The notes below the pieces were generated by a model. The model ran no database searches. It was not told where the DNA came from and was given only the letters and a program-made list of their open reading frames with translations. This document shows, piece after piece, positions 1,849-24,579 of a stretch of DNA of 24,579 nt. Position numbers and translations under genes: made by a program. The DNA is from a virus. Where the stretch lies: positions 1 through 24,579 of the IMG/VR virus record IMGVR_UViG_3300007516_000136; one strand, 5' to 3'. Each line of letters opens with the position of its first letter. Position 1 is the stretch's first letter.

Positions 1849-2224
1849 GGGGCTGCTTTGGTTTTGACAGGCAGACGTGTTCTTTGAGATGATGCAAGCA
1901 GGGTTAAATGGAAATCCTTAAACACCTATTAAACAATAATTGCAAACGTAGAACTATCTACATGGACCTTCGAAGATGCTATGGCATTCGTAGGTGGTGA
2001 TTTGGCACTAGCTGCTTAATCTCTTCCGTATCACTCATAGAACATTGAATAGAAGTGAAAGCCAGGTGAGATGTGACTGAACCTAAAATCGAGTCGTACA
2101 TTGGTCCAATTGACGATGTTGAAGAACTGATTGGTATTTTGTCTAGTTAGAAAACGAGACTACGCTTGTGAATGAGTCTGTTTGAATATCTGTTTGGACG
2201 AGGATTCGAATTCCTCCAGCTCCA
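1849..2224 (+). ncRNA. ssrA: Transfer-messenger RNA (tmRNA, 10Sa RNA)
   Basis: A one-piece tmRNA of about 376 nt. The tRNA-like part has a 7-bp acceptor stem, GGGGCTG (1849-1855) with CAGCTCC (2217-2223, one G-U pair), and discriminator A2224. A TGGTTTTGACAGG segment near the 5' end resembles the tmRNA D-arm. The T arm is GAGGA-TTCGAAT-TCCTC (2200-2216), preceded by TTTGGACG as in bacterial tmRNAs. The mRNA-like part has the upstream context AATAATT, then resume codon GCA at 1942 and a 25-codon tag to 2016 with stop TAA 2017-2019. The tag starts A-N-V-E-L-S-T-W and ends G-G-D-L-A-L-A-A, the ClpXP/SspB-type degron. A GACTACGCTTGTG segment (2158-2170) matches the region before the last pseudoknot. 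tmRNA with SmpB frees stalled ribosomes and tags the unfinished protein for proteolysis. The CCA end is not encoded (CTG follows). Confidence 0.93.
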
Positions 2225-2264
2225 CTGGTTTATCATAGTCATGCTGAGAAGCACAGCTAAAGAG

Positions 2265-2665: not shown

Positions 2666-3084
2666 TGGGCTGCTTTAGTCAACTAACACAATCCAACTTC
2701 CTCTCAGAATCTAAAGAGGAGCTGTTATCCGCGCAAAGGAAACTTGTAACGGGAGCTGCTCCACTATTTGATGCTACACTAATCTTCAATAAGAAGGACA
2801 GAAAGTATGTGTATGATAACTACATCCGGGAATATGAGCTATTAACAGAACTACTAGAGCTGGAGGTAGATGTCTCTAAGAGGTTGATATTCTATATACA
2901 AGACGATCACCTATTATTTATATACAGTAAAACAAGAAAACTTGTTGATGAAGCTGTAATCTATAACTATAACGTATGTGGGGATATTCCCTTCTGCAGA
3001 TCTAAACATATAATAAAGGGTCAAACATACTTTACAGCATTAATTGATCGTAGAATTGAGTTTACTCCTATATCTCCCAACTAG
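2665..3084 (+). CDS. Hypothetical protein
   Basis: A 139-residue protein translationally coupled to the gene before it by a one-base TAATG overlap. It looks like a mixed alpha/beta globular protein: a helical middle (DNYIREYELLTELLELEVDV, about 50-69) followed by strands (RLIFYIQDDHLLFIYS). Three cysteines (C3, and two near residues 105 and 111) show no metal-binding spacing. No domain is recognised. The stop is TAG, rare in this window, and it lies within the stem of the terminator that follows, which supports a genuine end here. Confidence 0.6.
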   Translation: MGCFSQLTQSNFLSESKEELLSAQRKLVTGAAPLFDATLIFNKKDRKYVYDNYIREYELLTELLELEVDVSKRLIFYIQDDHLLFIYSKTRKLVDEAVIYNYNVCGDIPFCRSKHIIKGQTYFTALIDRRIEFTPISPN

Positions 3085-4311: not shown

Positions 4312-4631
4312 TGATAATAGCCACCTTAATTACCCTAGCAACCTTAGTAATACTACTCTGCTATCTAGTTTATATAAACTACAAAAAGGCAGAAAGAGCC
4401 GCAGACTACTGTGAAGCATACGTTCGATTTATCTCAACACTTTTCTTTCAATTCACAGAGACTAGAGATAAAATAAAAGAAGTAGATCGTTTAGGAGCTT
4501 TCCAAGCAGACGATGAAACCGGTTTTATATTTAAAGAATTAGACCACTCAATAGATGATTTATATGAATTTATTACAAAGTATGTCAACACAACAACTGA
4601 AAATAAAGAAAACAAGAAAGCCGAAGACTAA
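4311..4631 (+). CDS. Small single-pass membrane protein, unknown function
   Basis: A 106-residue protein with a strong N-terminal transmembrane helix (residues 1-23, IATLITLATLVILLCYLVYI) followed by a positively charged KKAER, which predicts a cytoplasmic C-terminus. The soluble part is helical and acidic; the segment RLGAFQADDETGFIFKELDHSI (about 63-84) looks like the conserved core. Similar short anchored helical proteins appear in T4-like environmental phages, but no function is known to me. The start overlaps the HD gene stop (TAATG). Confidence 0.65.
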   Translation: MIIATLITLATLVILLCYLVYINYKKAERAADYCEAYVRFISTLFFQFTETRDKIKEVDRLGAFQADDETGFIFKELDHSIDDLYEFITKYVNTTTENKENKKAED

Positions 4632-4635
4632 GAGA

Positions 4636-5307
4636 ATGTACTTCGGTCCAGAAGTGGATCTTGAGATTGTAAAGTATAACCAGAGTGTAGATGATTTTGA
4701 AAGAAGTAGCATATACCGATTAGGCATCAGAGCACCCTTTGAGAAGTTGGTCGAGAATGTGATCCACACATTCAAGTTTTATTACACTGGTGACCAAACC
4801 TTAAATCAAGTACAGCACGAAGTAGTGAGTTTCTTAGTCGAGAAGTTACCCAAATTCAAAAAGGACAATGGAAAGGCGTTTAGTTATTTCAGTATAGTAG
4901 CAAAAAACTACTGTATATTAAAAAATAGAAGCAACTATAAAAAGCTAACAAGCCATAATAGAATAGACTCGTCGTCAGAGTTACCTGATATTATAGAGGA
5001 TACTGAGAGAGCAGAGCAACTAAGCTCGTTTGTTAATATGTTCGTAGACTATTGGGACGATAATATGGAGGTTACTTTTTCAAAAAAGAACGATCAAAAA
5101 ATAGCGTATGGTGTAGTTGAGTTATTTAGAAAGAGAGATACAATCGAGTTGTTTAATAAAAAAGCCTTATACATATATATTCGTGAAATGTCAGATGCCA
5201 ACACCCAGCAGATTACTAAGATGGTTAAGCTGATGAAGGATAAGTACAAAGTAATGTATAATGACTTTTTAGTATATGGTTATCTGCCAAAACGCAAAAT
5301 CTACTAA
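4636..5307 (+). CDS. T4 gp55-like late-transcription sigma factor
   Basis: A 223-residue protein when started at ATG 4636, four bases after the upstream stop; the frame extends back to 4555 but that would overlap the membrane-protein gene. Residues ~33-97 (APFEKLVENVIHTFKFYY ... HEVVSFLVEKLPKF ... AFSYFSIVAKNYCI) resemble sigma region 2: core-binding helices, then the aromatic-rich -10 recognition helix. There is no sigma region 4, as in T4 gp55. The C-terminal part (about 155-212) is helical. In T4, gp55 binds host RNA polymerase with the sliding clamp and coactivator gp33 to start at TATAAATA late promoters. The candidate target here is the recurrent TATTTATAT. Family assignment is from pattern memory of T4-like phage sigma factors. 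Confidence 0.75.
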   Translation: MYFGPEVDLEIVKYNQSVDDFERSSIYRLGIRAPFEKLVENVIHTFKFYYTGDQTLNQVQHEVVSFLVEKLPKFKKDNGKAFSYFSIVAKNYCILKNRSNYKKLTSHNRIDSSSELPDIIEDTERAEQLSSFVNMFVDYWDDNMEVTFSKKNDQKIAYGVVELFRKRDTIELFNKKALYIYIREMSDANTQQITKMVKLMKDKYKVMYNDFLVYGYLPKRKIY

Positions 5308-8899: not shown

Positions 8900-10375
8900 A
8901 TGGTAGAGTTAAAAGGAAAAATAGGACAAATAGCAACTGGTGCAGTTGTTTTAAACGAAGCATACCCACTCTGGCAAAGAATGGTAGATGACTTGAAGAG
9001 GGATAAGGCTTTAGAGCTCAAAGCAAAACAAGGGTATGTATCAAAATATGATATAGTAGACGAGTTACGCAAACGAGCCAAAGACAAGGCTCCAGCAACA
9101 GATCTTACACTAGCTAGTATGTTAGATCCAAAGGTATTAATAGTAGATATTATAGGCATTAAGCCATCTGGATCAGCTGATCCAGATGCATCTGGATCAG
9201 TAGCAACTGGAAGTGGCTTCCCCTCCGGATCTTATGAAAAACTAGAAACATATATTACAACACTAGGAGCAGATAAATTCGAACCACCACTATCACTTAA
9301 ACAAAAGAGTCCATCTCAGGAGTTTTATGTTCACCCAATACCAAATAATCTTAAAGAAGATCCAAGAAGGACTGGTAGATTGTTTGTAGTAGATGCTGAG
9401 ACTGTAAAGAACAAAGACCTATTGTCATGGATCTATAATAATAGCTTGTTATATGGATTTTTACCTTACGGGAGCCCAGAACCAAATGCATTTTATTTTG
9501 TAGGGAAGGAGAAGGTTAAAGATCTGGTGAGGACTGCAGGCGATGTAGCAAAGGTTGTGTCCACATTTCTAGGTTCAATTTTACCAAAGGATATCATAAC
9601 GATTAGCACTGACAAAGTATTAACACACAGCTTAACGCCAGGAACAGAATTCGCAGATCCAGGTAACGCAGAGGAAGTAGTGGCAGTTATTGTAGCGGGT
9701 GTTACCACCCCCGCTGCAGGTTTGATAGTAACTAATAACAAAATTGACCTATTACTTTATAAACCAGCTGGAGAAATGCTCGCTCTCCGAGCAGACGCAG
9801 CGTTTGCTTACGCAGCAATGAAAGCAGCAGCAGCTAACGAAAGTCCAAAAATCGGTCTGAGGTTGACTTCCGCGTACCGTCCACCACTTGGTTCCTATAC
9901 AAAAATGGTTACTAGTAAAGGCACGGAATTATCAGTCACAACGCAGTACTCTTTGAGAGTGAGTAATCTTAAAGAGGGCATCGTAGATAAATCTGACAAC
10001 CAATATATGAGAGGACCAATGGAAAATTTCCATCCTGCAACCGCTCCCCCAGGGAGTTCCTTTCATGGGGATGGACTAGCGCTTGACCTTAACACCGGAG
10101 GATTTCCAGAACTAAGCGCGAAGACTCCATTTAGTCAAGGTGGAAGGATAATGGAATGGTTAACCCGCAACGCTCATCGATATGGATTTATTAGATCAGT
10201 CCCAAGCGAAGCGTGGCACTTTGAGTACCTTCCACCCGGAAAACCAAACAAGTACAATCAAAGTTCAGCAACTGGTCCATATACAATAATTAAAAGCAAC
10301 AATTCACAATGGGGCCCTTATGGTAATGAAGATTGGAACTCGAGAGGTGGTTTTCTAGGCTCAGGGGCACCTTGA
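8900..10375 (+). CDS. Tail-associated M15/VanY-type D-Ala-D-Ala peptidase with degenerate N-terminal half
   Basis: A 491-residue protein. The C-terminal third is a peptidase M15 domain: SAYRPP (324-329), then S387-F-H389-G-D-G392-L-A394-L-D396, then SEAWHFEY (436-443). Zinc ligands are H389, D396 and H440, with E437 as catalytic base. M15 enzymes cut the peptide stems of peptidoglycan, often at D-Ala bonds. Residues 176-200 align without gaps to 419-443 (W, N, YGF and E-P/A shared) but have Ala in place of the zinc His, suggesting a decayed second copy. A Gly/Ser linker near residues 90-111 contains a 36-bp inverted/direct repeat. With the muramidase gene two ORFs upstream, this gives the tail two complementary wall-cutting activities. 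The stop is TGA; a 64-base gap follows. Confidence 0.8.
   Translation: MVELKGKIGQIATGAVVLNEAYPLWQRMVDDLKRDKALELKAKQGYVSKYDIVDELRKRAKDKAPATDLTLASMLDPKVLIVDIIGIKPSGSADPDASGSVATGSGFPSGSYEKLETYITTLGADKFEPPLSLKQKSPSQEFYVHPIPNNLKEDPRRTGRLFVVDAETVKNKDLLSWIYNNSLLYGFLPYGSPEPNAFYFVGKEKVKDLVRTAGDVAKVVSTFLGSILPKDIITISTDKVLTHSLTPGTEFADPGNAEEVVAVIVAGVTTPAAGLIVTNNKIDLLLYKPAGEMLALRADAAFAYAAMKAAAANESPKIGLRLTSAYRPPLGSYTKMVTSKGTELSVTTQYSLRVSNLKEGIVDKSDNQYMRGPMENFHPATAPPGSSFHGDGLALDLNTGGFPELSAKTPFSQGGRIMEWLTRNAHRYGFIRSVPSEAWHFEYLPPGKPNKYNQSSATGPYTIIKSNNSQWGPYGNEDWNSRGGFLGSGAP
9165..9200. repeat. Three alternating copies of a 12-mer forming a 24-bp perfect palindrome
   Basis: The 12-mer CATCTGGATCAG occurs at 9165-9176 and 9189-9200. 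Its exact reverse complement, CTGATCCAGATG, occurs between them at 9177-9188. Copies 1-2 and 2-3 each form a perfect 24-bp inverted repeat. It encodes part of a Ser/Gly/Asp linker (about residues 89-101) of the M15 protein and keeps the frame. Confidence 0.9.
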
Positions 10376-10439
10376 TAAACTACTGGAAATCTAGGATATA
10401 GTTAAATTCAGAAATAGCACTACTAAAAACGCAAAATCG
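10376..10439. other. Short intergenic gap before the tape-measure gene
   Basis: This 64-base AT-rich gap is one of the longer ones in the structural region. I see no TATTTATAT motif, hairpin with T-tract or SD in it. It may only provide an A-rich translation start region (ACTAAAAACGCAAAATCG). Confidence 0.4.
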
Positions 10440-13400
10440 ATGCCATATAATTTTAAGACAACCTTTACGGAACCTCTAATTGCACAGCTTGATGCCGGAA
10501 CAATAACAGGAGCAGAGGATTGGGCAACAGCTATTACAAGCCTTTACGCAAAGACGGTGGCTATGGGTTTACCTCAAGGAGTTCCACCGACACTTCCAGC
10601 ACCAGGTCTAAACCCTACAACACCACCACCATATCCAATCGGACCAGTAGGAATTACAAACAATCCAAAAGAGAAGGCCTTTAAGCAGACAATTAAAGCA
10701 TACTTTCTCGCAAAGGAGATAGGAAACGATAAAGCAGCTTTGAAAGGCCTAGTACAAACCTCGAACCAGCTTATTGCAAAAATAAAAGTAAGACGAAAAG
10801 AGGTTTTGGATTTGGTTGAGAACATAAAAGCATTATCAAAGGAGGTCGCCAACATCCCAAAGTATATCGAAGAAATGATTGCAGCAGTGAAGGAAATTAT
10901 TACTGAGGATATTAAAAGGGTAAAGGATTTGCATGATCTATTTGCTAATCTAGAGCAGGAACTCAAACGACAAATGTCAGCAGAAGATATACGACGAGTT
11001 TTCAGCAAGGAGTTGCAGCTTTTAAATATACTCAAAAATATAAAGATTGATAGCTTTGAAGACCTACAAGAGTTGTCAGAGTTTTCAAAAAAAATAAAGG
11101 AGCGTGTTGATTCTATTAAAAGAGAGGCTGGAGTATCAGTTGTCGGGAAATCAGGTGAGGGAGAACGAATGGCTCATGTGAAAGATTATATGGGTGGTAA
11201 GATTGTTGAAATCGTATTGTCTATAGATCAATTATCCGCAATCGCAGTTAACCCACCAAACTTACTAAATTATTTAGATAGGTTGCAGCGCAAGTCACCT
11301 AAGTTTAGAAGAATATATCAGGTTGTGTCTAAGCTAGATTCAATTGAGAGATATGTTAAGCCTCAGATAGTAAAGTTAAATAAAAACAAAGACCAAAAGA
11401 TCAAACAAATTAAAGACTATATTCAACCAAAGATAGACGAAATTAGAAAGAAGGTTGACGAAAAGACTCAAGAAATCTTATCAAAAAAGAGAGAAGGCGT
11501 AAATGAAAATTTATATGTAAAAACAAAAAAGCGCGTTGATGGGTTTAGAAAAACACATGGTGAAAAAATTAAGACAGCTAAAAAGAAAATAACACTGCTA
11601 CAAGAGGTGCTTTCAAAGTCCTCTAAACTTATACGAAAGGTAGATTCGCTTGTAGTATCTTTGGAGCAGGAGTTTGAAGGCGCTAAGTCCGAGTTAATAG
11701 TACTCAAGCAGGGCATAAAGGATGGCTCTGCATACGAGAACTTCACTGAACTATCAAAGGATTTTAAAAAACAACTAGCAGATAGAATACAACAACCATT
11801 GATTCCAACCTCACAAAATCAATTATCAACGGACCCAACGCAACCGCCATCACTAAGCCAAATTAGAGAGAATGCAAGACCTGGAGAGTTTGTACAAGGG
11901 TATGAGAGAAGGATTGATAGCCCAAATGATTTGGAAAGATCACGAGAATTACGTAAGCAATCTAACAAAGATGCAGAGGGAATTATAGCAACAGAGGAGG
12001 AGGTGTACACTTATATGTCTAGTGTGGGCTTAGGAGAGCTGTCTACCACAGCCTTCAGAGCTATTTCCGAATCCAAAACCAACTTGGATATGTTTAAAAA
12101 AGTCTTTCGAAAGAAGAAGAGCTCATATAATAGCTATGTTGAAGAAATAGAATCACTCAAAGTTGATAGTAATGATTTACTGGACACCATCTCAGCAATT
12201 ATAGGGAATAGTGAAGTAAGGCAAGCCCGAAGAGATCAGCGAAGAGATCAAAGAAAGCAGAGGAGAGATCAAAGAGACGCTGATGAACAGCAAGGGACGT
12301 CATTAAAGCAGCTATTCCAGGACATTATGACGAAAATAAAACCATGGATTGCAAAAGCAAAAGCGTGGGCTGAAAGAATCTTAAAGCAGGTTAAAGATTA
12401 CATCAAAGAAAAAGCTGAAAAATTTGAAGAGGATATTGAGCGGTTTTTGTTGAACCTAGTACCACTTGGTAGTGATAAAAAAGACTATGAAACTAAGCAG
12501 CTCGAAGCGCAAGCCAAAAAGCTGAAAATTCAACACTACAAAAAGCAGATAAGATATTATCAAAAGCTAGGAACAGCTATTGGTAAAGTTGCAGAAGGCT
12601 CACTGATTTTATCAAAAAACCTGTTCACAGACGGTAGGTATCTGCTATCTGCTAATGAGAAGGCTCTAACAGATGTGGTGAATGGTATATATGACTTCAA
12701 AGCCACAAGAGCTAATAATGATGCCTCAGTAATATCAGGGCTTCAGGCTGATAGAGTATCTTTCATTGCAAGGATGGATGATCTAATTATAATAGAGATG
12801 CTAATACTTGGTTTGATAGAGTTTTTCAAAGCGGTGACAGACTCAAAGAGCTATGTTGCTGATTGGAATAGTTTTATTGAGTCACTGAAGGACAGTCCAG
12901 CTTATGTGACAGATGCACTCAAAGCGTTGGGTGAGGTTTACAAAAACCCACCAAAAAATCCACTAACAATAAAGACTCTGGTAGAGGATACTCTGGACGC
13001 ATCAAACGTAATGAGAGCATTTGAGGAAGTCCCAGTGATAAATGGATTGTTGGTGCTTGAAGAAAAGCACCTTGGGGGAGTAAGGGAGTTGCTCAAAACT
13101 ATAACAGATAGCAAACTCAAAGACGCAGTCAACAGATTAGCTAGTGGTCGAACAAAGTCTAAGGCACTTTATGAATCAATAAGAGAATTGAGTGCTGTGC
13201 TAAATAGTAAAAGCTCATTTATAAGATACTTGTTGGAAAAGCTGAAAGAATTACTTGAAAAGCTTGCAATCTTTATTCGCAAAGAAGTGGATAAGTTTGT
13301 CACTGAAGCAAAGATATGGATAGCTAAGAAGTTAGAAAAAATCAAAGAGCAATACGATGAGCAACTGGATAAAATAAAGGAGAGAGCTGTAAATGCAGAC

Positions 13401-13667
13401 GCAATAGTAATGTCTACTGTCTTTGGATTAGCAGCGCAATTATATTGGGCCGGAGCAGTTTGGACGGGACCCACAGCATCCACACACACTACGTTCACAG
13501 TAGGATTATTCGCTCCAAAAATGAAGGCGTTATCAAAAGATGGAGCAACCGGATTTGTAACGGAGATGGCAAAGGGGTTCGAAAAGCAATTACAAACAAT
13601 GTCGGGAATGGTGACTCCACCACCAAACACAGGAATACCACCTATCCTATTTACTGGCTACAAATAA
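10440..13667 (+). CDS. Tape-measure-like coiled-coil tail protein
   Basis: A 1075-residue protein dominated by long charged heptad-type helices (about 75-470, 540-620, 640-740, 930-1005) with Lys/Glu-rich stretches. A hydrophobic segment (IIIEMLILGLIEFFKAV, about 783-799) and a Gly/Ala-rich C-terminal region (about 1005-1075) could insert in the membrane or contact the tail terminus. This is the layout of tail tape-measure proteins. At roughly 0.15 nm per helical residue, the full length would correspond to a tail near 160 nm. A short basic repeat, RRDQ, occurs three times (about 597-610). The N- and C-termini share a similar helix-plus-proline module. Position between spike and gp25/gp6 genes suits the tail-core role. 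Start ATG follows an A-rich stretch with no SD; other starts are unlikely. Confidence 0.65.
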   Translation: MPYNFKTTFTEPLIAQLDAGTITGAEDWATAITSLYAKTVAMGLPQGVPPTLPAPGLNPTTPPPYPIGPVGITNNPKEKAFKQTIKAYFLAKEIGNDKAALKGLVQTSNQLIAKIKVRRKEVLDLVENIKALSKEVANIPKYIEEMIAAVKEIITEDIKRVKDLHDLFANLEQELKRQMSAEDIRRVFSKELQLLNILKNIKIDSFEDLQELSEFSKKIKERVDSIKREAGVSVVGKSGEGERMAHVKDYMGGKIVEIVLSIDQLSAIAVNPPNLLNYLDRLQRKSPKFRRIYQVVSKLDSIERYVKPQIVKLNKNKDQKIKQIKDYIQPKIDEIRKKVDEKTQEILSKKREGVNENLYVKTKKRVDGFRKTHGEKIKTAKKKITLLQEVLSKSSKLIRKVDSLVVSLEQEFEGAKSELIVLKQGIKDGSAYENFTELSKDFKKQLADRIQQPLIPTSQNQLSTDPTQPPSLSQIRENARPGEFVQGYERRIDSPNDLERSRELRKQSNKDAEGIIATEEEVYTYMSSVGLGELSTTAFRAISESKTNLDMFKKVFRKKKSSYNSYVEEIESLKVDSNDLLDTISAIIGNSEVRQARRDQRRDQRKQRRDQRDADEQQGTSLKQLFQDIMTKIKPWIAKAKAWAERILKQVKDYIKEKAEKFEEDIERFLLNLVPLGSDKKDYETKQLEAQAKKLKIQHYKKQIRYYQKLGTAIGKVAEGSLILSKNLFTDGRYLLSANEKALTDVVNGIYDFKATRANNDASVISGLQADRVSFIARMDDLIIIEMLILGLIEFFKAVTDSKSYVADWNSFIESLKDSPAYVTDALKALGEVYKNPPKNPLTIKTLVEDTLDASNVMRAFEEVPVINGLLVLEEKHLGGVRELLKTITDSKLKDAVNRLASGRTKSKALYESIRELSAVLNSKSSFIRYLLEKLKELLEKLAIFIRKEVDKFVTEAKIWIAKKLEKIKEQYDEQLDKIKERAVNADAIVMSTVFGLAAQLYWAGAVWTGPTASTHTTFTVGLFAPKMKALSKDGATGFVTEMAKGFEKQLQTMSGMVTPPPNTGIPPILFTGYK

Positions 13668-13677
13668 AATTACTAAC

Positions 13678-13686
13678 TATTTATAT
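13678..13686 (+). promoter_or_regulatory. Candidate late promoter (TATTTATAT) for the gp25/gp6 operon
   Basis: The 9-mer TATTTATAT lies in the 28-base gap after the tape-measure gene, nine bases before the ATG at 13696. A start five bases downstream (13691) would leave a leader of about five bases. This is the second copy at the head of a structural block. Confidence 0.45.
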
Positions 13687-13695
13687 TAAAACAAC

Positions 13696-14178
13696 ATGAA
13701 AGCATCCGAATTTATAAATCTAATGCGCAAGGTTATACGCGAAGAGGTACGTACTGTGATTAGAGAAGAGCTTAAAAGCTTAAAACCACTATTAATGGAA
13801 AAGTCTAGTCCGAAAAGAGTAGGTATTGCAGACCATATATCACAACCAGCTCGAATACCTCAAGTAAAAATAAAACAAGCAGAAAGAACTATCCAAGAAC
13901 CAAGATTTACTGGACCTTTGGCTGACTTACTAAACGAAACATACGAATCAATGATAGCACGACCACAAGAGGAGGATGAATGGCCAGATATGAATAACGG
14001 TCCAATGGACTCGCAAATGTTCGCAGGGATGGAGGGAAGTACTATGGGCTTAAACTCAATGCTTGCAGATGAGTCCTCACTGCCAGCTAGCAGAGGATAT
14101 AGTGATCCAACCAATGCGTTCGTGAAAGACTACTCAGCTATAATGAAATCAGCCGACGCAATCCAAGGAAAATTATAA
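13696..14178 (+). CDS. Hypothetical protein with basic/acidic N-terminal helix
   Basis: A 160-residue protein. The N-terminal 35 residues form an amphipathic helix with alternating Arg and Glu (LMRKVIREEVRTVIREELKSL), a start seen in several small proteins of T4-like environmental phages. The rest is low in predicted structure, rich in Pro, Met, Ser and Asp (EEDEWPDMNNGPMDSQMFAG, about 94-113), and probably flexible. No catalytic motif. Its stop overlaps the gp25 start (TAATG), so it is translated together with the baseplate genes and may be an assembly or linker component. Function unknown. Confidence 0.6.
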   Translation: MKASEFINLMRKVIREEVRTVIREELKSLKPLLMEKSSPKRVGIADHISQPARIPQVKIKQAERTIQEPRFTGPLADLLNETYESMIARPQEEDEWPDMNNGPMDSQMFAGMEGSTMGLNSMLADESSLPASRGYSDPTNAFVKDYSAIMKSADAIQGKL

Positions 14179-14594
14179 TGGCAATTCCAATAAAAATATA
14201 TCCGCTAGACTTTGAGTCCAACGTAGCAATTGGAATTGATCTTCCAATGATTACAGAGGCTGGAGGTGTGTTTAGTTTAAACTATCTGACCATGGATCAG
14301 GCAGTAGCCAATGCAAAGAACTTATTACTAACAAACGAAGGAGAGAGAGTGATGCAACCTGAGTTTGGATGCAACTTACGTAAAACGTTATTTGAGAATA
14401 TGACGGACGAGACTCTTGAAGTTTTGGAGGACCGTATAAGAAATACTTTTGGGTATTGGCTACCTTACATATTTATTAAAGAGCTGCAACTTACACCAGA
14501 TGATGATTATAATAAGCTATTTATAAAACTGACAATAGGTTTGGAGGGTAATAAATTTGACACTAGGTCAATAGAAGTAGAAATAAACACATAA
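14178..14594 (+). CDS. gp25-like baseplate wedge protein
   Basis: A 138-residue protein, the usual length of the GPW/gp25 family (T4 gp25 is 132). It shows the family order: an N-terminal strand region (PIKIYPLDF), the helix with 'N-A-K-N-L-L-L-T-N-E-G-E-R-V-M-Q-P-E-F-G' spacing (about 40-60), in which R-V-M-x-P-E-F-G is the hallmark, then L-x-x-x-L-F-E-N (64-71) and a C-terminal beta region. gp25 starts sheath assembly in the baseplate inner ring and holds the wedge core with gp6 and gp53. The gp6-like gene directly follows, 5 bases on, as expected for contractile-tail baseplate operons. Confidence 0.9.
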   Translation: MAIPIKIYPLDFESNVAIGIDLPMITEAGGVFSLNYLTMDQAVANAKNLLLTNEGERVMQPEFGCNLRKTLFENMTDETLEVLEDRIRNTFGYWLPYIFIKELQLTPDDDYNKLFIKLTIGLEGNKFDTRSIEVEINT

Positions 14595-14599
14595 TAAAG

Positions 14600-16492
14600 A
14601 TGGCTAACATTTCAAGAAAACCATCAAAGGATATAAAATACTTTGGACGCGACTTTGATTCTTTGAAGAAGGGGTTGATTGAGTTTGCTAGAGTTTACTA
14701 TCCAAACACATATAATGACTTTAATGAGGCATCACCAGGAATGATGTTTGTTGAAATGGCTGCTTACGTCGGGGATGTGTTAAACTATTATGTTGATTCT
14801 CAATTTAAAGAATCACTACTATTACACGCTACCGAAAAACGAAGCGTTATGTCAATAGCCTCAGCAATGGGATATAAACCAAAGATTAGTGTACCATCTC
14901 AAGTTGAATTGGATATATTCCAGCTGCTTCCAGCCTCAGGGAGTGGTGTAGACGTTGCTCCAGATATAAGATACGCACTGCGCATTGGGTCAGGAATGAG
15001 AGGACGCAGCACAGCAAATCAAACGGAGTTCCTAATTCAAGACGCCATTGACTTTTCAGTAGATAATATATATTCCCCAACGGAGTTTTCTGTGTATACT
15101 ATAGATAATAATGGTGCACCGAATTACTTTCTAGCAAAAAAGACAGTTAAGGCAATCTCAGCAGAACCGAGAGTAATGGATGTTGTGGTTGATGGAACTA
15201 GTAAGTTTTTTAAATTTCAATTGCTCGGAGCAGATCTAATCGGAATTGATAGTATAATTGATAGTGACGGTCATCTATGGTACGAGGTTCCTTATTTAGC
15301 TCAAGATACTATTTTTGAAAAAGTAGCGAATACATCGTTCAACGATCCAGACGCTGCTGTTTATAGTGAAGATACTCCGTATCTAATGAAGCTGAAAAAA
15401 GTACCACGCCGATATATAGTAAGAACAACAGACAAGGGATTTGAAGTACAATTCGGATCTGGTATCAGCTCATCACCTGATGAAGAGTTGCTAGCAACAC
15501 CTGAGAACATTGGACTTAGGTTGCCGACCGGAAAAGATGACTTGGATGCATCTATAGATCCACAAGCCCCAATTTTTACGGGGGCTTATGGTGTAGCACC
15601 ATCCAACACAACACTAACTGTTGTTTATTTAGCGGGTGGCGGTGTGAAATCAAACGTACCTAGCAACACCATTACTGATGTAGTAGCAATAACACCACAC
15701 ACAGGAAGCTTTCCTTTAAGTACCGGAGCCCTGAACGCTAACATAATTAACTCAGTCGCTATCAATAATCCAATAGCAGCTGTAGGTGGTAGAAATGAGG
15801 AAACATTAGATGAAGTGAAACAAAACACACTAGCATCTTTCACATCTCAAAATAGAGCAGTGACTAAGGAAGATTATATAATTAGAGCGTACGCAATGCC
15901 TAATGTGTATGGTAGTGTTGCAAAAGTATTCATCACACCTGACGAACAAAGCAACATTGGAACTTCAAAGGCCCACGACGCCGTAGCGAATCCATTAGCA
16001 TTGAATATGTACGTGCTAGGGTATAATGTTGATAAGCAGTGCACTGTATTGAACAGAGCAGTTAAGGAGAACCTAAAAACGTATATCTCCCAGTACAAAA
16101 TGCTAACTGATAGTATTAATATAAGAAACGCATATATTATTAATATAGGAGTGGATTTTGATATAATTCCAATACCCAGCTTTAATGCAAACGAAGTCAT
16201 ACTAAGTAGTATTTCAAAATTAAAAGAGTTTTTTGCTATTGATAAATGGCAAGTAAACCAGCCAATTATATATGGAGACATATACAATATATTACTATCC
16301 GTTACCGGTGTTCAAACAGTAACCGCTGTTCGTATCAAAAACCTCAACGATGAGTTAGCGGGGTATAGTGATGTGTACTACTACATAGAATCATCAACCA
16401 AAAGTGGAATTATTTACCCAAGTCTCGATCCGGCAATCTTCGAAGTAAAATTTCCAGACAATGATATTAAAGGACGCATAGCAACATACTAA
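14600..16492 (+). CDS. gp6-like baseplate wedge protein (baseplate J-like)
   Basis: A 630-residue protein close in length to T4 gp6 (660). The N-terminal part (DIKYFGRDFDSLKKGLIEFA ... PGMMFVEMAAYVGDVLNYY, about 11-66) is the conserved helical start of gp6/baseplate-J proteins, where 'P-G-x-x-x-x-E-x-x-A-Y-x-x-D-x-L-x-x-Y' is diagnostic. The centre is beta-rich; the segment NPIAAVGGRNEETLDEVKQN (about 392-411) followed by RAVTKEDYI (about 419-427) matches the J-family 'G-x-x-x-E-T-x-x-x-x-R/K ... A-V-T-x-x-D-Y' motif. Two gp6 chains form the triangular wedge heterotrimer with gp7 and build the inner baseplate ring. It follows gp25 and precedes the 16494 gene by one base. Confidence 0.9.
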   Translation: MANISRKPSKDIKYFGRDFDSLKKGLIEFARVYYPNTYNDFNEASPGMMFVEMAAYVGDVLNYYVDSQFKESLLLHATEKRSVMSIASAMGYKPKISVPSQVELDIFQLLPASGSGVDVAPDIRYALRIGSGMRGRSTANQTEFLIQDAIDFSVDNIYSPTEFSVYTIDNNGAPNYFLAKKTVKAISAEPRVMDVVVDGTSKFFKFQLLGADLIGIDSIIDSDGHLWYEVPYLAQDTIFEKVANTSFNDPDAAVYSEDTPYLMKLKKVPRRYIVRTTDKGFEVQFGSGISSSPDEELLATPENIGLRLPTGKDDLDASIDPQAPIFTGAYGVAPSNTTLTVVYLAGGGVKSNVPSNTITDVVAITPHTGSFPLSTGALNANIINSVAINNPIAAVGGRNEETLDEVKQNTLASFTSQNRAVTKEDYIIRAYAMPNVYGSVAKVFITPDEQSNIGTSKAHDAVANPLALNMYVLGYNVDKQCTVLNRAVKENLKTYISQYKMLTDSINIRNAYIINIGVDFDIIPIPSFNANEVILSSISKLKEFFAIDKWQVNQPIIYGDIYNILLSVTGVQTVTAVRIKNLNDELAGYSDVYYYIESSTKSGIIYPSLDPAIFEVKFPDNDIKGRIATY

Positions 16493-16493
16493 G

Positions 16494-17621
16494 ATGATAC
16501 TAAGATTTTATCCAACCAAAGATGCGACAATATATGAGCGCTCTCCAAACAAGAATGCTGGTTTAGATGCCGTGTTAGATATATCCAAGGTTCTAGACGG
16601 ATCTACTGCATATAATTCACGAGCTCTTTTGGATTTTGATTTTGAAGCAATAGCACAGACTCTCTTAGATCGGGGACTTGAAGGTGACAGTTACAGTGCT
16701 AGTTGGAAACTCAAAATGTATATCGCAGAGGAGCATGAAGTTCCATTAGATTATCAGATAAACTGTTATATGGTATCAGGTCCATGGTCAATGGGGATTG
16801 GTAGACATGGAAATATACCAGAGACTACAGTGGGAGTGAGCTGGAATCACAGAGTAAGCCCATTAGATCCAACCACAGCGTGGGGAGCTGGCTCTTCCCC
16901 CGCTGGAACAACGTGGAACTATGCAACCAATCCAGGAGGAGGAGAGTGGTATGCATTACCAGAAGTAACCCAAAGCTTTAATTACAAATCTGGTGATCTC
17001 GACTTAGACGTCTCTGAGATGGTACCACTATTACTAGCATCCATTGACCCGGCCACAATCCCTCCAACTTATGGCGGATTTTTGATTAAAAAACAAGACT
17101 CAGACGAAAGCTCTAATTTACCGTTTAGAAGCTTGAAGTACTTTAGTAGAGACACACACACAATATACTCACCAATACTAGAATATGGATATGATGATAG
17201 TGAGCAAGACTCGTCATTACCAAGCATAAACACAAGCGGTAGTTTTAATGTGGTCGCCGTTAATATGAGGCAAGAGTACAAAGAGACTTCAGTCCATAAA
17301 ATCCGATTTGCAGCAAGACCAACTTACCCAGTAGCCACATTTGTAACAGAAGCAAGTCAACTACAGAGATATATATTACCAGCAGGTTCTCAGTATGCTA
17401 TATATAGTGCACATACAGATGATGTGATTATTGATTTTAGTAATAACACAACACTGAGTAGTGATGAGGAAGGAAACTACTTCCAACTATCATTTGAGAA
17501 CTTTCAACCGGAAAGGTACTATCGATTTGTACTTAAAATAAAGAACAGCGCTACTGAAAGTGGCTTATTTGACTATCAAATATACGATAATAATTGGGTA
17601 TTCAGAGTTTCAAGAAAATAA
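16494..17621 (+). CDS. Virion structural protein with DNRLRE-like beta-sandwich
   Basis: A 375-residue protein. The N-terminal ~220 residues begin with LRFYPTKDATIYERSPNKNAG, then LDISKVLDGSTAYNSRALLDFDF, which follows the DNRLRE pattern ('D-A-x-I ... N-x-G ... L-x-V ... R-x-L-L-x-F-D'). They continue with a W-rich middle (GVSWNHRVSP, WYALPEV) and DLDVSEMV, the usual late strand. DNRLRE domains are beta-sandwiches found in surface-bound extracellular proteins. Residues ~240-375 form a second beta-rich domain. It is probably a baseplate or tail-side decoration, perhaps binding glycans; this is inferred. The stop shares its last base with the ATG at 17621. Confidence 0.6.
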   Translation: MILRFYPTKDATIYERSPNKNAGLDAVLDISKVLDGSTAYNSRALLDFDFEAIAQTLLDRGLEGDSYSASWKLKMYIAEEHEVPLDYQINCYMVSGPWSMGIGRHGNIPETTVGVSWNHRVSPLDPTTAWGAGSSPAGTTWNYATNPGGGEWYALPEVTQSFNYKSGDLDLDVSEMVPLLLASIDPATIPPTYGGFLIKKQDSDESSNLPFRSLKYFSRDTHTIYSPILEYGYDDSEQDSSLPSINTSGSFNVVAVNMRQEYKETSVHKIRFAARPTYPVATFVTEASQLQRYILPAGSQYAIYSAHTDDVIIDFSNNTTLSSDEEGNYFQLSFENFQPERYYRFVLKIKNSATESGLFDYQIYDNNWVFRVSRK

Positions 17622-20600
17622 TGAGAAATGCAGATGGAACATTAAATGGTAACTCTAACGATAACGTCTCTGCAACAACTTCAGGGAAGATTGTATTTTT
17701 ACCAACTAGTAGCGTAGACGAAAATCTTACTACGTACGATTTAATGCCTATTATCTTAAACCGTCCACCAATCATTACAATCAACATTTCAGAAAGATCA
17801 GCACCTCAAATTAAATCATCAGCAACGGCAAACGCAAGCGGCGAACATTTATATAGGTTTCCAGATGGAACTGTTAAAGTATACATCGGATCAACTTTCA
17901 CCTTAAATATAGGAGCGGTACAACCTGACATATATAACGTTGAAAACGGAATACCAACTATTAAAGCACCCGATCAGGAGTTATTTTTTGTGTGGAGGCA
18001 GGATAGCGCTATTATAAGAACTAGAGAGAGACCATCATTACAAAGCCGAACAATAGTGAGTGGCAGCAGCATTAGATTTGAGCGAATTCAGCCAAATTCA
18101 GCTGGAACGTATACTTGTGAAATATCAAATGATATAGGAGCAGTTCAGTCAGAAGCTATAACGATAGAGGTGCTTAATCCAGATTTAGATGCTTATTTCT
18201 ATAGAAACTTAGTGATCAACGGAAATGCAACAACAGGCGTTGAAGGTTGGACTGCAAATAATGGTGATTTTGTACAAAAGGAGCTGTACCGAAAGGATGG
18301 TGTTGAGTTAAAGACACCAAATCGCGTAGATTTATTTGGATATAATATCGATACAATGCACCCCCGACCATATCAAATTGAAACCGGACTAATTAAAAAC
18401 GTAAAGTATAACGAAGATTTTTTAAAAAAAGGAGGTGGAGGTTATTTTACTCGAGATGTTTATAAGTTTGAACGAGCAGGAGGGAACTACTATGTACAAG
18501 CCTACCAAGAAATTGATGTAACAGAAATACAAGACATAATAAGAGGTAGTATTTATGGTATTGATGGTGTGAGAGTTGTCTTTGGCTGCTATATAGGTAA
18601 TGCAGTGTCTCAGTGGACTCCAACAATACCAGTAGTAGGTGTAGATCAAAAAACAAATCCAGAAAATTACTACTTGGGAGCTCCACGAATTAGTGTTCAG
18701 AATTTCTTAATGGCAGGACCAGGACAAACAACAGATCAAGTATATGTCACACTGGAGGAATATGATAATGAATCACGACTAGCCAGTACTGTCGTTAATC
18801 CAGATGGAGTTACTACAACAACACTACCAACGTCAGTGATTCTTCGAGACCCATGGGACAAAAGAAAAACAAAGTATCAAGGGGAAAAGTACTACACAAA
18901 AGATGTTTACGGTTTGGGTATTACTTCTAAAGGTGATTGGATAGATAATACTTTATTTGTGGCAGATGAGCTATATCCAAATCTAAACAACAGACCAACA
19001 CACGGTCAGTACTTAGAATTCAACCGAGTAGTGCTAGAGAGGTTAAACCCAAAAACTACTAAAATCCGCATTGCTATAAACTTTATAACTACGGATTGGA
19101 GAATGTATGAGCACTGGGATTATGAGTTATTAGGGAGTGATAGAATCTTTGAGCATGTAGGTTGGGAAGCACCACACAAGAAAAATACATTTATTAAAGA
19201 GGCGGATGGGTGGATTCGATCAATACTAGACGTGAGTAGCAAGTATAAGGATAGACCACCGATTGAGAAGTACACGCTAGCACCATCACCTCGTCTAGCA
19301 GTTACAGGATTGAGTTTGGCATTAATACCAATAGAGAGATTAAACAAAAAAGCCACAGACTACTATACAACAACTGCGCTATCATTAAATAACAAACCAG
19401 TCACTCAGACTCCGTCAGCGCTATCAACAGATTTTATATTTGACCCAGAAGGTAAATTGAATCAAGAGTTGTTCGTAACCTTTAAACACAACTCACCTGC
19501 AAGCTACTCTTTGTCCAATGGTTTAATAGAAAAATCACATAGAACAAGTGTATCACTTACTAGTAGACGAAAAGGAGATACGAGTAGCCCTAAGAGGATA
19601 AGTAATGCAACTAGTTCACTATTCCCATTCGCTAAAGGAAAGCTTACCTACGTTTATGCTGAAAATTCGCTGGAATTTAACAAAAATGTGAGTGAAACTG
19701 AAAATACTTTGCGCATCTCCAATATAAGAAAAAACTTTGTAAGAGAGGATCCTTTTCCAATAGCTGATCCTCTAGGTTACAAGCATATACTAAACACTGC
19801 ACCAGCTTGGACTGCATTTGGGTCATTTAGTCCCACAAAGGATGTGGGAAGAAAGGTTGAGTGGAAGAATGTCGCGAAGTACATGCTCTATTATATAGCA
19901 ACATCCGATGGGAGTACTAAATTTAATAGTTATTTACTAGTAATAGAAGAGACCGCAGTAACAATATATAGAGATGCATCACTTGCAAGCGGAACAGGGG
20001 AAGCTGAATTCAAAGTTACTGATTATACAATAGACACTAATGGTACACTAGACTTCAGCTTACCCATAGAGTTATTGACTGCAAGCATAGAAGATGGAGG
20101 ACTAGGTATACCAGCAAAGCAAGATCATATGCTGAACTTGAACTCACTAGAAGCGCTGCAGGCAATGAAGCAATCTGAAGGCGAAGCATTGGCAATAGGA
20201 GCTGGAGGTGTAGCAACTGATCCTATGGTATTTAGTAGCAATAGACAGTATAACATAGATGAGTTATGGAAGAGCTACTTTCAGTTGACAACTGACAGAG
20301 AGTGGATGGGTATAAATTATACACAATATGAGGGTCGGGATAGTCTAATCGCTCAGCAATATGTACCATTTGAAAGAGATGTTAGGGATTATCTACGTGG
20401 TGAGAGCGGAGGTGTAGTTCCAACACTAGCTACCCTAGTGAAGGATTGGAAGGTGGACAACTTAGGTATGGTGCAAATCAAGATAAGAAAAATAATGCCA
20501 AACCCTGGGTATAGCACGATATTATACGCAGTTCGTACAGCACCACAATTAGGAACTAACTCGAATGGAACTCCGGTCTACGGTACTGGACCTATGGGTG

Positions 20601-20653
20601 AAATGTATACTGTGCACTATCCAAAACTTATTGACTCAGCTACTAAGATATGA
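17621..20653 (+). CDS. Large virion structural protein with Ig-like domain (paralogue of the next gene)
   Basis: A 1010-residue protein from ATG 17621; the frame opens back to a TTG at 17594, but the TAATG overlap with the previous stop favours this ATG. Residues ~85-185 are an I-set-like immunoglobulin fold: the core Trp (FFVWRQ, W125) and the closing SAGTYTCEISNDIG (160-173, C166) are present, while the first disulphide Cys is absent. It is followed by AYFYRNLVINGNATTGVEGW (191-210), resembling the start of a galactose-binding-like fold. The remaining ~800 residues are beta-rich without named domains. By size and position after gp6 it could replace T4 gp7, but no sequence feature proves that. 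Ig domains on phage virions commonly give weak binding to host surface sugars. Confidence 0.6.
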   Translation: MRNADGTLNGNSNDNVSATTSGKIVFLPTSSVDENLTTYDLMPIILNRPPIITINISERSAPQIKSSATANASGEHLYRFPDGTVKVYIGSTFTLNIGAVQPDIYNVENGIPTIKAPDQELFFVWRQDSAIIRTRERPSLQSRTIVSGSSIRFERIQPNSAGTYTCEISNDIGAVQSEAITIEVLNPDLDAYFYRNLVINGNATTGVEGWTANNGDFVQKELYRKDGVELKTPNRVDLFGYNIDTMHPRPYQIETGLIKNVKYNEDFLKKGGGGYFTRDVYKFERAGGNYYVQAYQEIDVTEIQDIIRGSIYGIDGVRVVFGCYIGNAVSQWTPTIPVVGVDQKTNPENYYLGAPRISVQNFLMAGPGQTTDQVYVTLEEYDNESRLASTVVNPDGVTTTTLPTSVILRDPWDKRKTKYQGEKYYTKDVYGLGITSKGDWIDNTLFVADELYPNLNNRPTHGQYLEFNRVVLERLNPKTTKIRIAINFITTDWRMYEHWDYELLGSDRIFEHVGWEAPHKKNTFIKEADGWIRSILDVSSKYKDRPPIEKYTLAPSPRLAVTGLSLALIPIERLNKKATDYYTTTALSLNNKPVTQTPSALSTDFIFDPEGKLNQELFVTFKHNSPASYSLSNGLIEKSHRTSVSLTSRRKGDTSSPKRISNATSSLFPFAKGKLTYVYAENSLEFNKNVSETENTLRISNIRKNFVREDPFPIADPLGYKHILNTAPAWTAFGSFSPTKDVGRKVEWKNVAKYMLYYIATSDGSTKFNSYLLVIEETAVTIYRDASLASGTGEAEFKVTDYTIDTNGTLDFSLPIELLTASIEDGGLGIPAKQDHMLNLNSLEALQAMKQSEGEALAIGAGGVATDPMVFSSNRQYNIDELWKSYFQLTTDREWMGINYTQYEGRDSLIAQQYVPFERDVRDYLRGESGGVVPTLATLVKDWKVDNLGMVQIKIRKIMPNPGYSTILYAVRTAPQLGTNSNGTPVYGTGPMGEMYTVHYPKLIDSATKI

Positions 20654-23379
20654 AAAAGCTAACAACAAGACTAACATCAGCATCACAAGACACAGCACTG
20701 AGGTCTGGTGACTTTTTTCTAATGCCAGAGTCACCCTTCCCACCAGCAATAACATCCGATCTGCCAAACAACATAAGACAGAAGAGCTATATAAAAGAGT
20801 ATGTCGATGGCGTTCCAGATTATGAGGATTTAAAACCGATATTTGGTGTATACTACGTAAAGGCTAATACGGAGTTGGAAATGATTATTGTTGCTCAAGA
20901 TCCATCTCAAGTAGATATGGATAAGATAGGAGATGACAGCAATCTAAGCTACGCTTGGTATAAAAATGGAGCACCACTTGTAGGACCTAACTCACTATTC
21001 AATGGAAAGGGAGCTCGAGGACTTCGACTACCACCAGAGGAGGTAACAGAGGAAACTTCTGGAATATACGTATGCGAGGTATCAAATGCTTACGGAGTTA
21101 CCCCTACAACATCAGTGGAGATACAGATAACAGATCCAAAAAACCATCCACTATTATATAAGAACTTAATTCAAAATGGTTCTGGAGCTGGTGGAGTAGA
21201 CAAGTGGACAGTTGATCGTGGAATTATATCAAGAACTTTTCAAAATAGTGCATGGATGTCTTACTTTTTTGGCAGTCTTCCACCATTTACCTATTACGAT
21301 TTCACCGCTGAAAAAGCCACTCAAAAAGAACACGATTTCAGGTTTGATCAAGGAGGACATGGTGGATTATTTTATCATGTATTCAATACGTGGTTGAAAG
21401 AAGAAAAAGATTTATTCAAAAAAGACAATAAGGCTAGTTCAAATGATATTAGTGTAGAGTGGCTGCAGTGGTATGTTAGAACCTTCCCACCACAGATAGT
21501 AGCTAATGAGGATGCGGGTACGCATAAGCGAGCAGCATTCTTTCCAGGCATAGACTGGATAGATAGATATAATAAAAATCAAAATCCAAAACATATAGGT
21601 CTTATAGGAGAGGTAGAAGATAGAGCTATGACCTATCTAACAAGAGATAAGATAAAATTTCAAAAGGATGGAGGAACTGCAACAACGACACTAACTCAAA
21701 CTATCAACATAGAAAAGGCAGCCAGCTTTACTGACAATATAGTACTGGGTGTGAGACCTTTGATTGGCCAATTCTTTTCTTACGTTGGAGCTGGCATCAC
21801 CGGATATTTAATAAAAGTAAAGGTGTTAGGTGTAGGTGAGCGCACTTTTAATTGGTTTGTTCGAGACTCTGAGGACTTTTTTGCAAAACTACAAGGAGCT
21901 GCTGTATCGGAAGCACTCTATATTGCTATCGAAGAGGGCTCAGATATCGAAATAATACCCTTGGTTCAAGATCAAACGACAATCACACTAACACTTAGAG
22001 ACTCATCACAAAGGGAGCTATCACAAGTGACCTTTGATGGCCCTAATGCAGTGGATGTTTTTGCTATTAAAGAGAAGTCTCAATTCCCACTAACGTGGTA
22101 TCCTATCTTCGATTTATTACTAACCAACAACAACACAATAAAGATTTTTGGTCAAAAGTACTCGTCCACAAAGGCATTGCAACCACTAATGGCACCCAAC
22201 CCTGCTGTAGTAACGGAAAGGGTATTTGGTGTTGATTTTACATTAAAACTAGACAGTGAAGTTGAAGTCGCTGATATGAAGAGGTTTATGGATTTGGTTA
22301 TGAAATACTCACCAGCACAACAGACATCAATGGGTTTGATACCAGTAAAAAAGTCGGACCTCAAGAAACTTATAGGTCACCGCGGTCATTGGAGTCTTGA
22401 ATTAATAGTGGCAGATATGAAGCGGACTGGTGAATGGTGGGATGATGTCAACTCAGCAGTAGATGAGAATAATCCACAATTTGACATTGCTAGAAAACGA
22501 GAATTATACCGCTCCATTGCCAAATTATTTAAATCCGTCGCAAAAGTTATCGTGCTAGAAACCCCAATTGTGCTAGAAACCCCAATTGGACAGAGTAGTG
22601 GGGCATCCGAGCTTGATGGGGCATACACAGTCCACATGGACCGCAATGCTGCGTTTTATATAAACAATGTAGAGTACAGAGAAGGAGGTCAGCTTTTCCC
22701 AAAACAACCAAACAACAACCCACCATTTAGCTACAATCCCATCCACGCTTCACGAGACAATAAAGCACTACAAGATTACGGAGCAGCAGCGATGTTTGCT
22801 ATAGGAGGAGAGTTTCAGATTCCAGAATCTACTAGAGTTATCGATATAAAGGTGTCTTTCACACACGACTCGAACGCGTTTAGAGATGATTCACCTGAAA
22901 CTAAGGGGTGGAAAAAAGGTACAATCTATAGGGATGATTTTGGTAATAAAGCAGCGGATAGCAGAAGGGTGTTGGAGTATGGTTACCCTCGATGCGGAAT
23001 CACGATGATGAAGTTGATGTTACTACCACAAACAGAACAACCAGATACAGATTTTATTAGTTATTTTATACCACCAATTAGCGAAACTGTTTGGGGAAGA
23101 AATAAACGACAACTTTTTGAAAACGTACATGACACTTCCCAACCAGGAGATTTTTCTTATGATTTTTATATGCCAACAACTGTTCCAAGCTTTAGAGGCA
23201 TGGATGTGTATGAATTAGGAAAACACACTCTTGCAGTTGAAAAGATCATAGTTCAGCAGAGAAAGGAACTCAGCCCTCAGATGTCTGATGAGGAGTCAGA
23301 GAAGCTTGCAAAGGATATTCAGCAATTTGAAGGATCCACACCAGCACGAGATGAGACTTACGGAGATGAGTCTGTATAA
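20650..23379 (+). CDS. Large virion structural protein with Ig-like domain (second paralogue)
   Basis: A 909-residue protein whose ATG lies within the previous gene's end (ATGA overlap). It repeats the layout of its neighbour: an Ig-like domain at about 65-162 with core Trp (YAWYKNG, W103) and ETSGIYVCEVSNAYG (135-149, C142), again without the first Cys. This is followed at once by LLYKNLIQNGSGAGGVDKW (168-186). The shared order points to an old tandem duplication with strong divergence. Around residues 635-646 an exact 18-bp tandem duplication gives VLETPI twice. The C-terminus is a charged helix ending PARDETYGDESV. It is probably a baseplate or tail-fibre-network component; exact role unknown. 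Confidence 0.6.
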   Translation: MKKLTTRLTSASQDTALRSGDFFLMPESPFPPAITSDLPNNIRQKSYIKEYVDGVPDYEDLKPIFGVYYVKANTELEMIIVAQDPSQVDMDKIGDDSNLSYAWYKNGAPLVGPNSLFNGKGARGLRLPPEEVTEETSGIYVCEVSNAYGVTPTTSVEIQITDPKNHPLLYKNLIQNGSGAGGVDKWTVDRGIISRTFQNSAWMSYFFGSLPPFTYYDFTAEKATQKEHDFRFDQGGHGGLFYHVFNTWLKEEKDLFKKDNKASSNDISVEWLQWYVRTFPPQIVANEDAGTHKRAAFFPGIDWIDRYNKNQNPKHIGLIGEVEDRAMTYLTRDKIKFQKDGGTATTTLTQTINIEKAASFTDNIVLGVRPLIGQFFSYVGAGITGYLIKVKVLGVGERTFNWFVRDSEDFFAKLQGAAVSEALYIAIEEGSDIEIIPLVQDQTTITLTLRDSSQRELSQVTFDGPNAVDVFAIKEKSQFPLTWYPIFDLLLTNNNTIKIFGQKYSSTKALQPLMAPNPAVVTERVFGVDFTLKLDSEVEVADMKRFMDLVMKYSPAQQTSMGLIPVKKSDLKKLIGHRGHWSLELIVADMKRTGEWWDDVNSAVDENNPQFDIARKRELYRSIAKLFKSVAKVIVLETPIVLETPIGQSSGASELDGAYTVHMDRNAAFYINNVEYREGGQLFPKQPNNNPPFSYNPIHASRDNKALQDYGAAAMFAIGGEFQIPESTRVIDIKVSFTHDSNAFRDDSPETKGWKKGTIYRDDFGNKAADSRRVLEYGYPRCGITMMKLMLLPQTEQPDTDFISYFIPPISETVWGRNKRQLFENVHDTSQPGDFSYDFYMPTTVPSFRGMDVYELGKHTLAVEKIIVQQRKELSPQMSDEESEKLAKDIQQFEGSTPARDETYGDESV
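22552..22587 (+). repeat. Exact 18-bp tandem duplication inside the 20650 gene
   Basis: GTGCTAGAAACCCCAATT occurs twice in direct succession (22552-22569 and 22570-22587). It encodes VLETPI-VLETPI and keeps the frame. Perfect identity indicates a recent slippage event. Confidence 0.95.
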
Positions 23380-23405
23380 TTAATTACGTAATTTTAACAC
23401 TAGCA

Positions 23406-23414
23406 TATTTATTA
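23406..23414 (+). promoter_or_regulatory. Possible late promoter variant (TATTTATTA)
   Basis: In the 45-base gap before the GTG at 23425, TATTTATTA differs from the recurrent TATTTATAT at the last two positions and is placed in the same way (10 bases before the start codon). A 12-bp palindrome, AATTACGTAATT (23382-23393), lies just before it. The same variant occurs once inside the gp25 gene, so specificity is limited. Confidence 0.3.
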
Positions 23415-23424
23415 ATAAAAATAC

Positions 23425-24132
23425 GTGGCAAAGATAGCAAAATCTATAGTAACATTACAATCTAGGAACAATGCCACATTGCCAATAGCAGCTGGAAAGT
23501 CTATTAGGGGTGCAGGCATTAGTAAAGATATCGCACCACAAGCAGTAGAACCTAGACCAGCAGCTAAACCACTACAACCATCGATGGTAAGTCCTTTTGG
23601 AATTAAACCCAATAACGTTACAATATATCCAAACGATGCAGTAGTAGTTGATGTGTTCAATGCTCTTAATCTATATTTAGAGACGAACTTCCGGGTAAAT
23701 AGCTATACTAAAGATGATTTGGATATCACTTTAGATGTAGAGGCTGATCTAAAGCAGTTTAATTATATCACAGGAAAGTATAACGTACAGTATAAGTTTC
23801 ATCGAAACTACCTAGGATCTGGAGATGGACATAGGATAGGGATTCAGGAGATAAGCTCTGACGGATTAGAGGTACGTGTAGTTCCAACACTCAGTAGCAC
23901 CATCAGTAATGCCGATTTCTTAGACTTCTTTGCGAAGGGGTTTTTTGAGATTACAAAAGCACAAGTACTACCTAGTCTATTCTTACATAGACAAACCGAA
24001 AACGGAATAGAATCTTACCGTATTTTTGATTATGTTCAAGATAAATTTACGGTTAGTCAAAACCCATTCTCGATCATATTAAAATTAGCAGCACCCATTC
24101 CAAGTTCAGTTACGCTAGGTGAGCGTGTGTAG
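23425..24132 (+). CDS. Virion structural protein, N-terminal part (ends at in-frame TAG)
   Basis: 235 residues from a GTG start; the frame is closed upstream by TAA at 23416-23418 and no ATG is suitable. An N-terminal Ala/Pro-rich leader (about 1-60) is followed by beta-rich structure. YNVQYKFHRNYLGSGDGHRIGIQEISSDGLEVRV (about 119-152) resembles a segment common in large tail proteins of T4-like environmental phages. The C-terminal end AAPIPSSVTLGERV stops at TAG 24130-24132 in the middle of what looks like a continuing strand. The same frame stays open for 149 further codons, so this is probably one gene interrupted by, or read through, an amber codon. TAG could arise from TGG by one G-to-A change. 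Confidence 0.65.
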   Translation: MAKIAKSIVTLQSRNNATLPIAAGKSIRGAGISKDIAPQAVEPRPAAKPLQPSMVSPFGIKPNNVTIYPNDAVVVDVFNALNLYLETNFRVNSYTKDDLDITLDVEADLKQFNYITGKYNVQYKFHRNYLGSGDGHRIGIQEISSDGLEVRVVPTLSSTISNADFLDFFAKGFFEITKAQVLPSLFLHRQTENGIESYRIFDYVQDKFTVSQNPFSIILKLAAPIPSSVTLGERV

Positions 24133-24579
24133 GTAGCACAACAAGTAAGTGATTCAATTGCTGATTCGATCACACTTATTCCACCCAAACCCAAAAGAAA
24201 CCAAACCTTCATTGCAGGACCAAATTGGGATGTATTAAGTAAAACTCAAACAGCAATCACAACTCCATACAAGGATTGGGACGACATACTTTCAACAAAC
24301 CAAGAAACCACGGAAGGGATAATTAATAAGTTATTGAGTGGATCTCTTGTTGAAGGAATTAAATTAAACACTGACTACAGAGATTTTGAAAATCACATTA
24401 CCTTCGGCTCTGCAGTAGAGCGAATACAAAACTACAGATACAAGCTAGCACTAATAGAAAGCTATGATGCAAGAATAGCGGAATTGACAACCAATCTCGA
24501 CTCACTGCCAAGTAGTAGTGTATCTAGTAGTTTAGCTTTCCAAACCAATGTAATTAATGCAAAAAACAAAAGAGCTGTG
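24133..24579 (+). CDS. In-frame continuation of the 23425 gene past the TAG (3' partial)
   Basis: All 149 codons from 24133 to the window end are open in the frame of the upstream ORF. They contain no ATG, and GTG only as the very last codon, so an independent start would need TTG or ATT. The product looks like normal coding sequence: VAQQVSDSIADSITLIPP, then a Gly/Pro turn (IAGPNWDVLS), WDDILSTNQETTEGIINKLLSG (about 54-75), and helical YRYKLALIESYDARIAELTT (about 103-122). It reads as the natural next domain of a tail protein. Interpretations are programmed or suppressor-tRNA readthrough, a nonsense mutation, or a sequencing or assembly error. Confidence 0.6.

Follow-up and report, generated by a model that had tools for sequence, protein, structure and literature searches.

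The question raised by this locus is why a gene in a viral contig should carry an amber codon part of the way through its reading frame. The window analysed here is the whole of a linear viral contig of 24,579 bases (IMG/VR record IMGVR_UViG_3300007516_000136), in which the TAG at 24130–24132 is in frame with an ORF at 23425–24132 (GTG start, 235 aa). Beyond the TAG the same frame stays open for 447 bases, or 149 codons, up to the contig end, with no ATG and with GTG only as its last codon. An initial annotation had described this arrangement, correctly on re-reading of the sequence, and had mentioned neither the in-frame TTG codons at 24334 and 24484 nor the end of the record 447 bases past the TAG. 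It offered two explanations, namely regulated readthrough giving short and long forms of a tail protein, or a TGG-to-TAG mutation; the second is supported by the comparisons below and the first is not. We put the probability at roughly 90% that the TAG is a lone TGG-to-TAG lesion, whether an error of sequencing or assembly or a defective allele of recent origin, rather than regulated readthrough or a changed code. The features concerned are as follows.

23425–24579, + strand: 5′ part of one gene (GTG start), interrupted by the TAG and cut by the contig end; the product is most likely a large virion structural protein from the baseplate/tail region
24130–24132, + strand: in-frame TAG where relatives have an invariant TGG (Trp); residue 236 of the window product
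24133–24579, + strand: continuation of the same reading frame for 149 codons, constrained as in relatives

Used as a query with W at the TAG, the 385-residue product matched 26 IMG/VR loci (L002–L027) at 43–65% identity, the tblastn alignments spanning both sides of the TAG. In all 26 the frame is open across the site with no stop, the relatives' ORFs being uninterrupted, and none of these homologues ends at the position of the TAG. The downstream open frame is not a chance one, since every relative's protein continues into a stretch that aligns with it. Judged from these alignments, the frames on either side of the TAG are one gene, whose full length in relatives is 1,481–1,553 aa (in contigs holding the whole gene, with L011 excluded for a bad join). 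The homologues belong to the same gene family and likewise lie behind two large structural genes, but opposite the window's TAG stands TGG in 26/26 loci. The corresponding residue of L002, W233, is invariant in a full-length alignment of 13 sequences, and a tryptophan also stands at the site in two distant phages at about 30% identity, an uncultured 484-kb phage (LR756508.1) and Microcystis phage Mel-JY01 (PP395634.1, CDS 167764–171774, WWT39511.1, annotated as 'hypothetical protein'), the latter being of the same gene family with Trp against the window's TAG. The initial annotation had given a Trp at this place in related phage proteins and proposed aligning the product and the downstream frame to homologues; one uninterrupted protein covers both, and the Trp is confirmed. 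A single G-to-A change at 24131 separates TGG from TAG.

The neighbourhood of the gene points to its likely role. Upstream lie a gp25-like baseplate wedge gene at 14178 (PF04965, E 2.7e-11) and a gp6-like wedge gene at 14600 (PHROG baseplate wedge), followed by two large genes with weak Ig-domain matches, after which the amber gene is placed, as it is in the IMG/VR relatives. Because these genes precede it, the product is most likely a large structural protein of the baseplate or attached to the tail, its exact role being suggested by position. Profile searches of PHROGs, Pfam and PDB with the protein and its full-length relatives gave no informative match to a family or solved structure, no DNA similarity to named phages was found, a scan with the 909-aa neighbour gave no match, and no relative was present in the genome contigs searched. 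The two neighbouring large structural proteins, encoded at 17594–20653 and 20650–23379, each contain a related region that matches Ig domains weakly, and look partly paralogous. The start of the 17594–20653 gene is probably the ATG at 17621, where the ORFs of relatives align, rather than the TTG at 17594.

Just ahead of the amber gene is a further feature.

23404–23419, + strand: promoter-like element rich in A/T (CATATTTATTAATAAA), 5 bases upstream of the GTG, with a similar element ahead of the gene in most relatives

In nearly all relatives the GTG of this gene has an A/T-rich element resembling (C)ATATTTATATTAAAA a few bases upstream and lacks an obvious Shine–Dalgarno sequence, and similar matches occur in the window at 13676–13691, just before the 13696 gene, and at 1834–1849, just before a tmRNA. 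In a pattern scan of the window the element was not commoner than chance, so that its support comes only from the recurring position; it may be a late promoter lying very close to the start codon, with a short-leader or leaderless mRNA. The tmRNA, at window 1849–2225, is phage-encoded (Rfam RF00023, 98.7 bits), and its predicted tag, at 25 aa, is unusually long. In the sister contig L037 the tag is 29 aa and in the relative G006 14 aa, and long tags may be a trait of this sub-lineage.

If the stop had been in place for long, its effect might be sought in the codons that follow. The downstream part has 57–78% amino acid identity to the 17 nearer loci and 46–49% to the other nine. Compared with the sister locus L004, identity is 0.62 upstream of the TAG and 0.78 downstream, where the differences at codon positions 1, 2 and 3 (0.21/0.11/0.59) fall mostly at the third. 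In protein trees the terminal branches for the upstream and downstream parts are 0.249/0.132 for the window, 0.414/0.155 for L004, 0.290/0.137 for L007 and 0.249/0.143 for L008, so the window's ratio resembles that of its neighbours and its terminal branch is no longer than those of sister lineages. By these measures there is no relaxed constraint or decay after the TAG, which would make the stop very recent, suppressed, or absent from the real genome. The TAG differs by one base from an invariant sense codon, and constraint continues beyond it.

The accuracy of the contigs themselves bears on this. L028, a contig of 7,089 bases from another sample, is the same virus, with 99.9% identity over window 11088–18177. 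The two differ by six substitutions and one one-base deletion, about 1 base per kb. The deletion, near position 7001 of L028 (window 18089) and 88 bases from the end of that contig, breaks the 17594–20653 gene. Three of the six substitutions are silent third-position changes, which may be real polymorphism; at 16382 the window has an odd residue, Tyr, where L028 and all four relatives aligned there have Asp or Asn. Applying the rate of 6 per 7,090 to the coding bases of the window, without selection, gives an expected 0.99 nonsense changes, or 0.42 if all changes were transitions, figures that have only six substitutions behind them and that overestimate errors if some of the differences are true silent polymorphisms. 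Comparable breaks are found in sibling contigs: L039 has a frameshift at 10294–12182 in the gp6-like gene (orthologue of window 14600–16492), and L038 has a frameshift with missing residues at 4605–5275 (orthologue of window 4555–5307). Given this expectation and these breaks, one amber in 24.6 kb is unremarkable. An early stop in L011 (1,060 aa) was considered as a second amber and rejected. That contig is 100% identical to L012 until L012 ends, and exactly there, at 9086, it joins sequence ~175 bases further on in its relative L013, so that the frame is broken; the break is probably a false scaffold join.

The favoured account, a lone lesion, would run as follows. The gene starting at 23425 most likely encodes a conserved structural protein of ~1,530 aa in the virion of a tailed phage, and a single G-to-A change at 24131 turns its invariant Trp codon into an in-frame amber. 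Either the TAG would not be in the real genome, the metagenomic assembly having a wrong base close to a contig end, or it would be a very recent nonsense mutation carried by a defective or minor variant. The TAG is 447 bases from the contig end, however, and so is not at the very edge. An exact search of IMG/VR, with R at 24131 so as to admit both bases, found no other contig over the site. We infer error or recent mutation as the cause. The DNA as written would give a truncated product of 235 aa, most likely functionless, and no regulated mechanism would be needed.

Among the alternatives, the one that survives best is that the amber is real and is read by a suppressor tRNA, encoded by the phage or its host, so that full-length protein is still made and this is the lone TAG so far; we regard this as very unlikely. 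The virus is known from a fragment alone and the tRNA could sit elsewhere, related phages do carry tRNA genes, and the downstream frame is fully constrained, as suppression would have it. Against this, a tRNA search of the window, itself a fragment of the virus genome, found none, and no tRNA with a CUA anticodon was found in the records of 15 relatives, some of them 91–166 kb long and possibly all fragments. The five tRNAs in those records have the anticodons tct, ttc, taa, tag (Leu) and cat. Of these, the one with 'tag', a Leu tRNA of G008, was considered as an amber suppressor and rejected, as it reads CUA codons.

The use of TAG elsewhere also argues against suppression. The 22 other complete genes of the window end in TAA (18), TGA (3) and TAG (1, at 3084), and in 7,722 codons there is one internal stop; the initial annotation had likewise counted TAG ends only at the amber site and at 3084, with no internal TAG in any other long structural gene, and its view that a general recoding of TAG is unsupported is borne out. 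Orthologues of the 3084 gene in L037 and L038 stop at the same aligned place, also with TAG, and the amber gene itself is terminated by TAG in eight relatives (L002, L008, L009, L014, L015, L016, L023 and L026) and by TAA in others. No other window gene with an orthologue in relatives is interrupted. From this pattern, TAG is not recoded in this clade and is a stop. The locus shares an in-frame TAG in a phage structural gene with the TAG-recoding, crAss-like phages of genetic code 15 (PMC9523058, PMC10607447). Those phages have many TAG-bearing genes, the gut phage phAss-1 having TAG in 41 ORFs (PMC10607447), whereas here there is one TAG and the clade ends genes with that codon; general recoding under code 15 is rejected on these grounds. 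The records searched also yielded no suppressor tRNA. A stronger form of the suppressor explanation, more unlikely still, would have a real and fixed amber read by a tRNA of the host or by one of the phage's own, encoded outside the known fragment, with full-length protein made only in suppressor-bearing cells; the lineage, which otherwise uses TAG as stop, would then be starting to recode it. Suppression from either source is without positive support.

It is less probable again that the gene is being lost or split in this lineage, leaving a pseudogene or two separately translated parts. The in-frame TTG codons could in principle restart translation, but the downstream frame offers no ATG and a GTG only at its final codon, its constraint is unrelaxed, and a structural gene of ~1,530 aa that is kept in all relatives would be unlikely to be dispensable.

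Least probable of all is programmed readthrough, in which the structural protein would be made as a 235-aa short form and, rarely, as a long one. Some RNA phages and plant viruses do make virion proteins by readthrough, Q-beta A1 being an example, and the anatomy here is what would be expected, with an in-frame stop inside a virion gene followed by a long, conserved coding extension. Unlike the Q-beta A1 type, the stop is not conserved in relatives (TGG in 26/26, so neither is the two-form arrangement), there is no stimulatory RNA structure 3′ of it (the following 90 and 131 bases fold no better than shuffles, with z-scores of 0.36 and 0.05), and it falls early, at residue 236 of about 1,530, where conservation runs on without a break, rather than at the border between a complete protein and an optional extension. 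The short and long tail proteins suggested by the initial annotation thus find no relative with the stop, no downstream structure and no suppressor tRNA in the records searched.

A lone lesion of the kind favoured here carries little biological weight. Its lesson is that, on meeting a single in-frame stop in a metagenomic phage contig, one should begin by comparing it with relatives and with the error rate of the contig; for one as long as this, 0.4–1 nonsense changes would be expected by chance, and one was found. Should the amber prove real and suppressed, TAG reassignment would have been caught at an early stage, in a phage lineage where the codon still serves as a stop.
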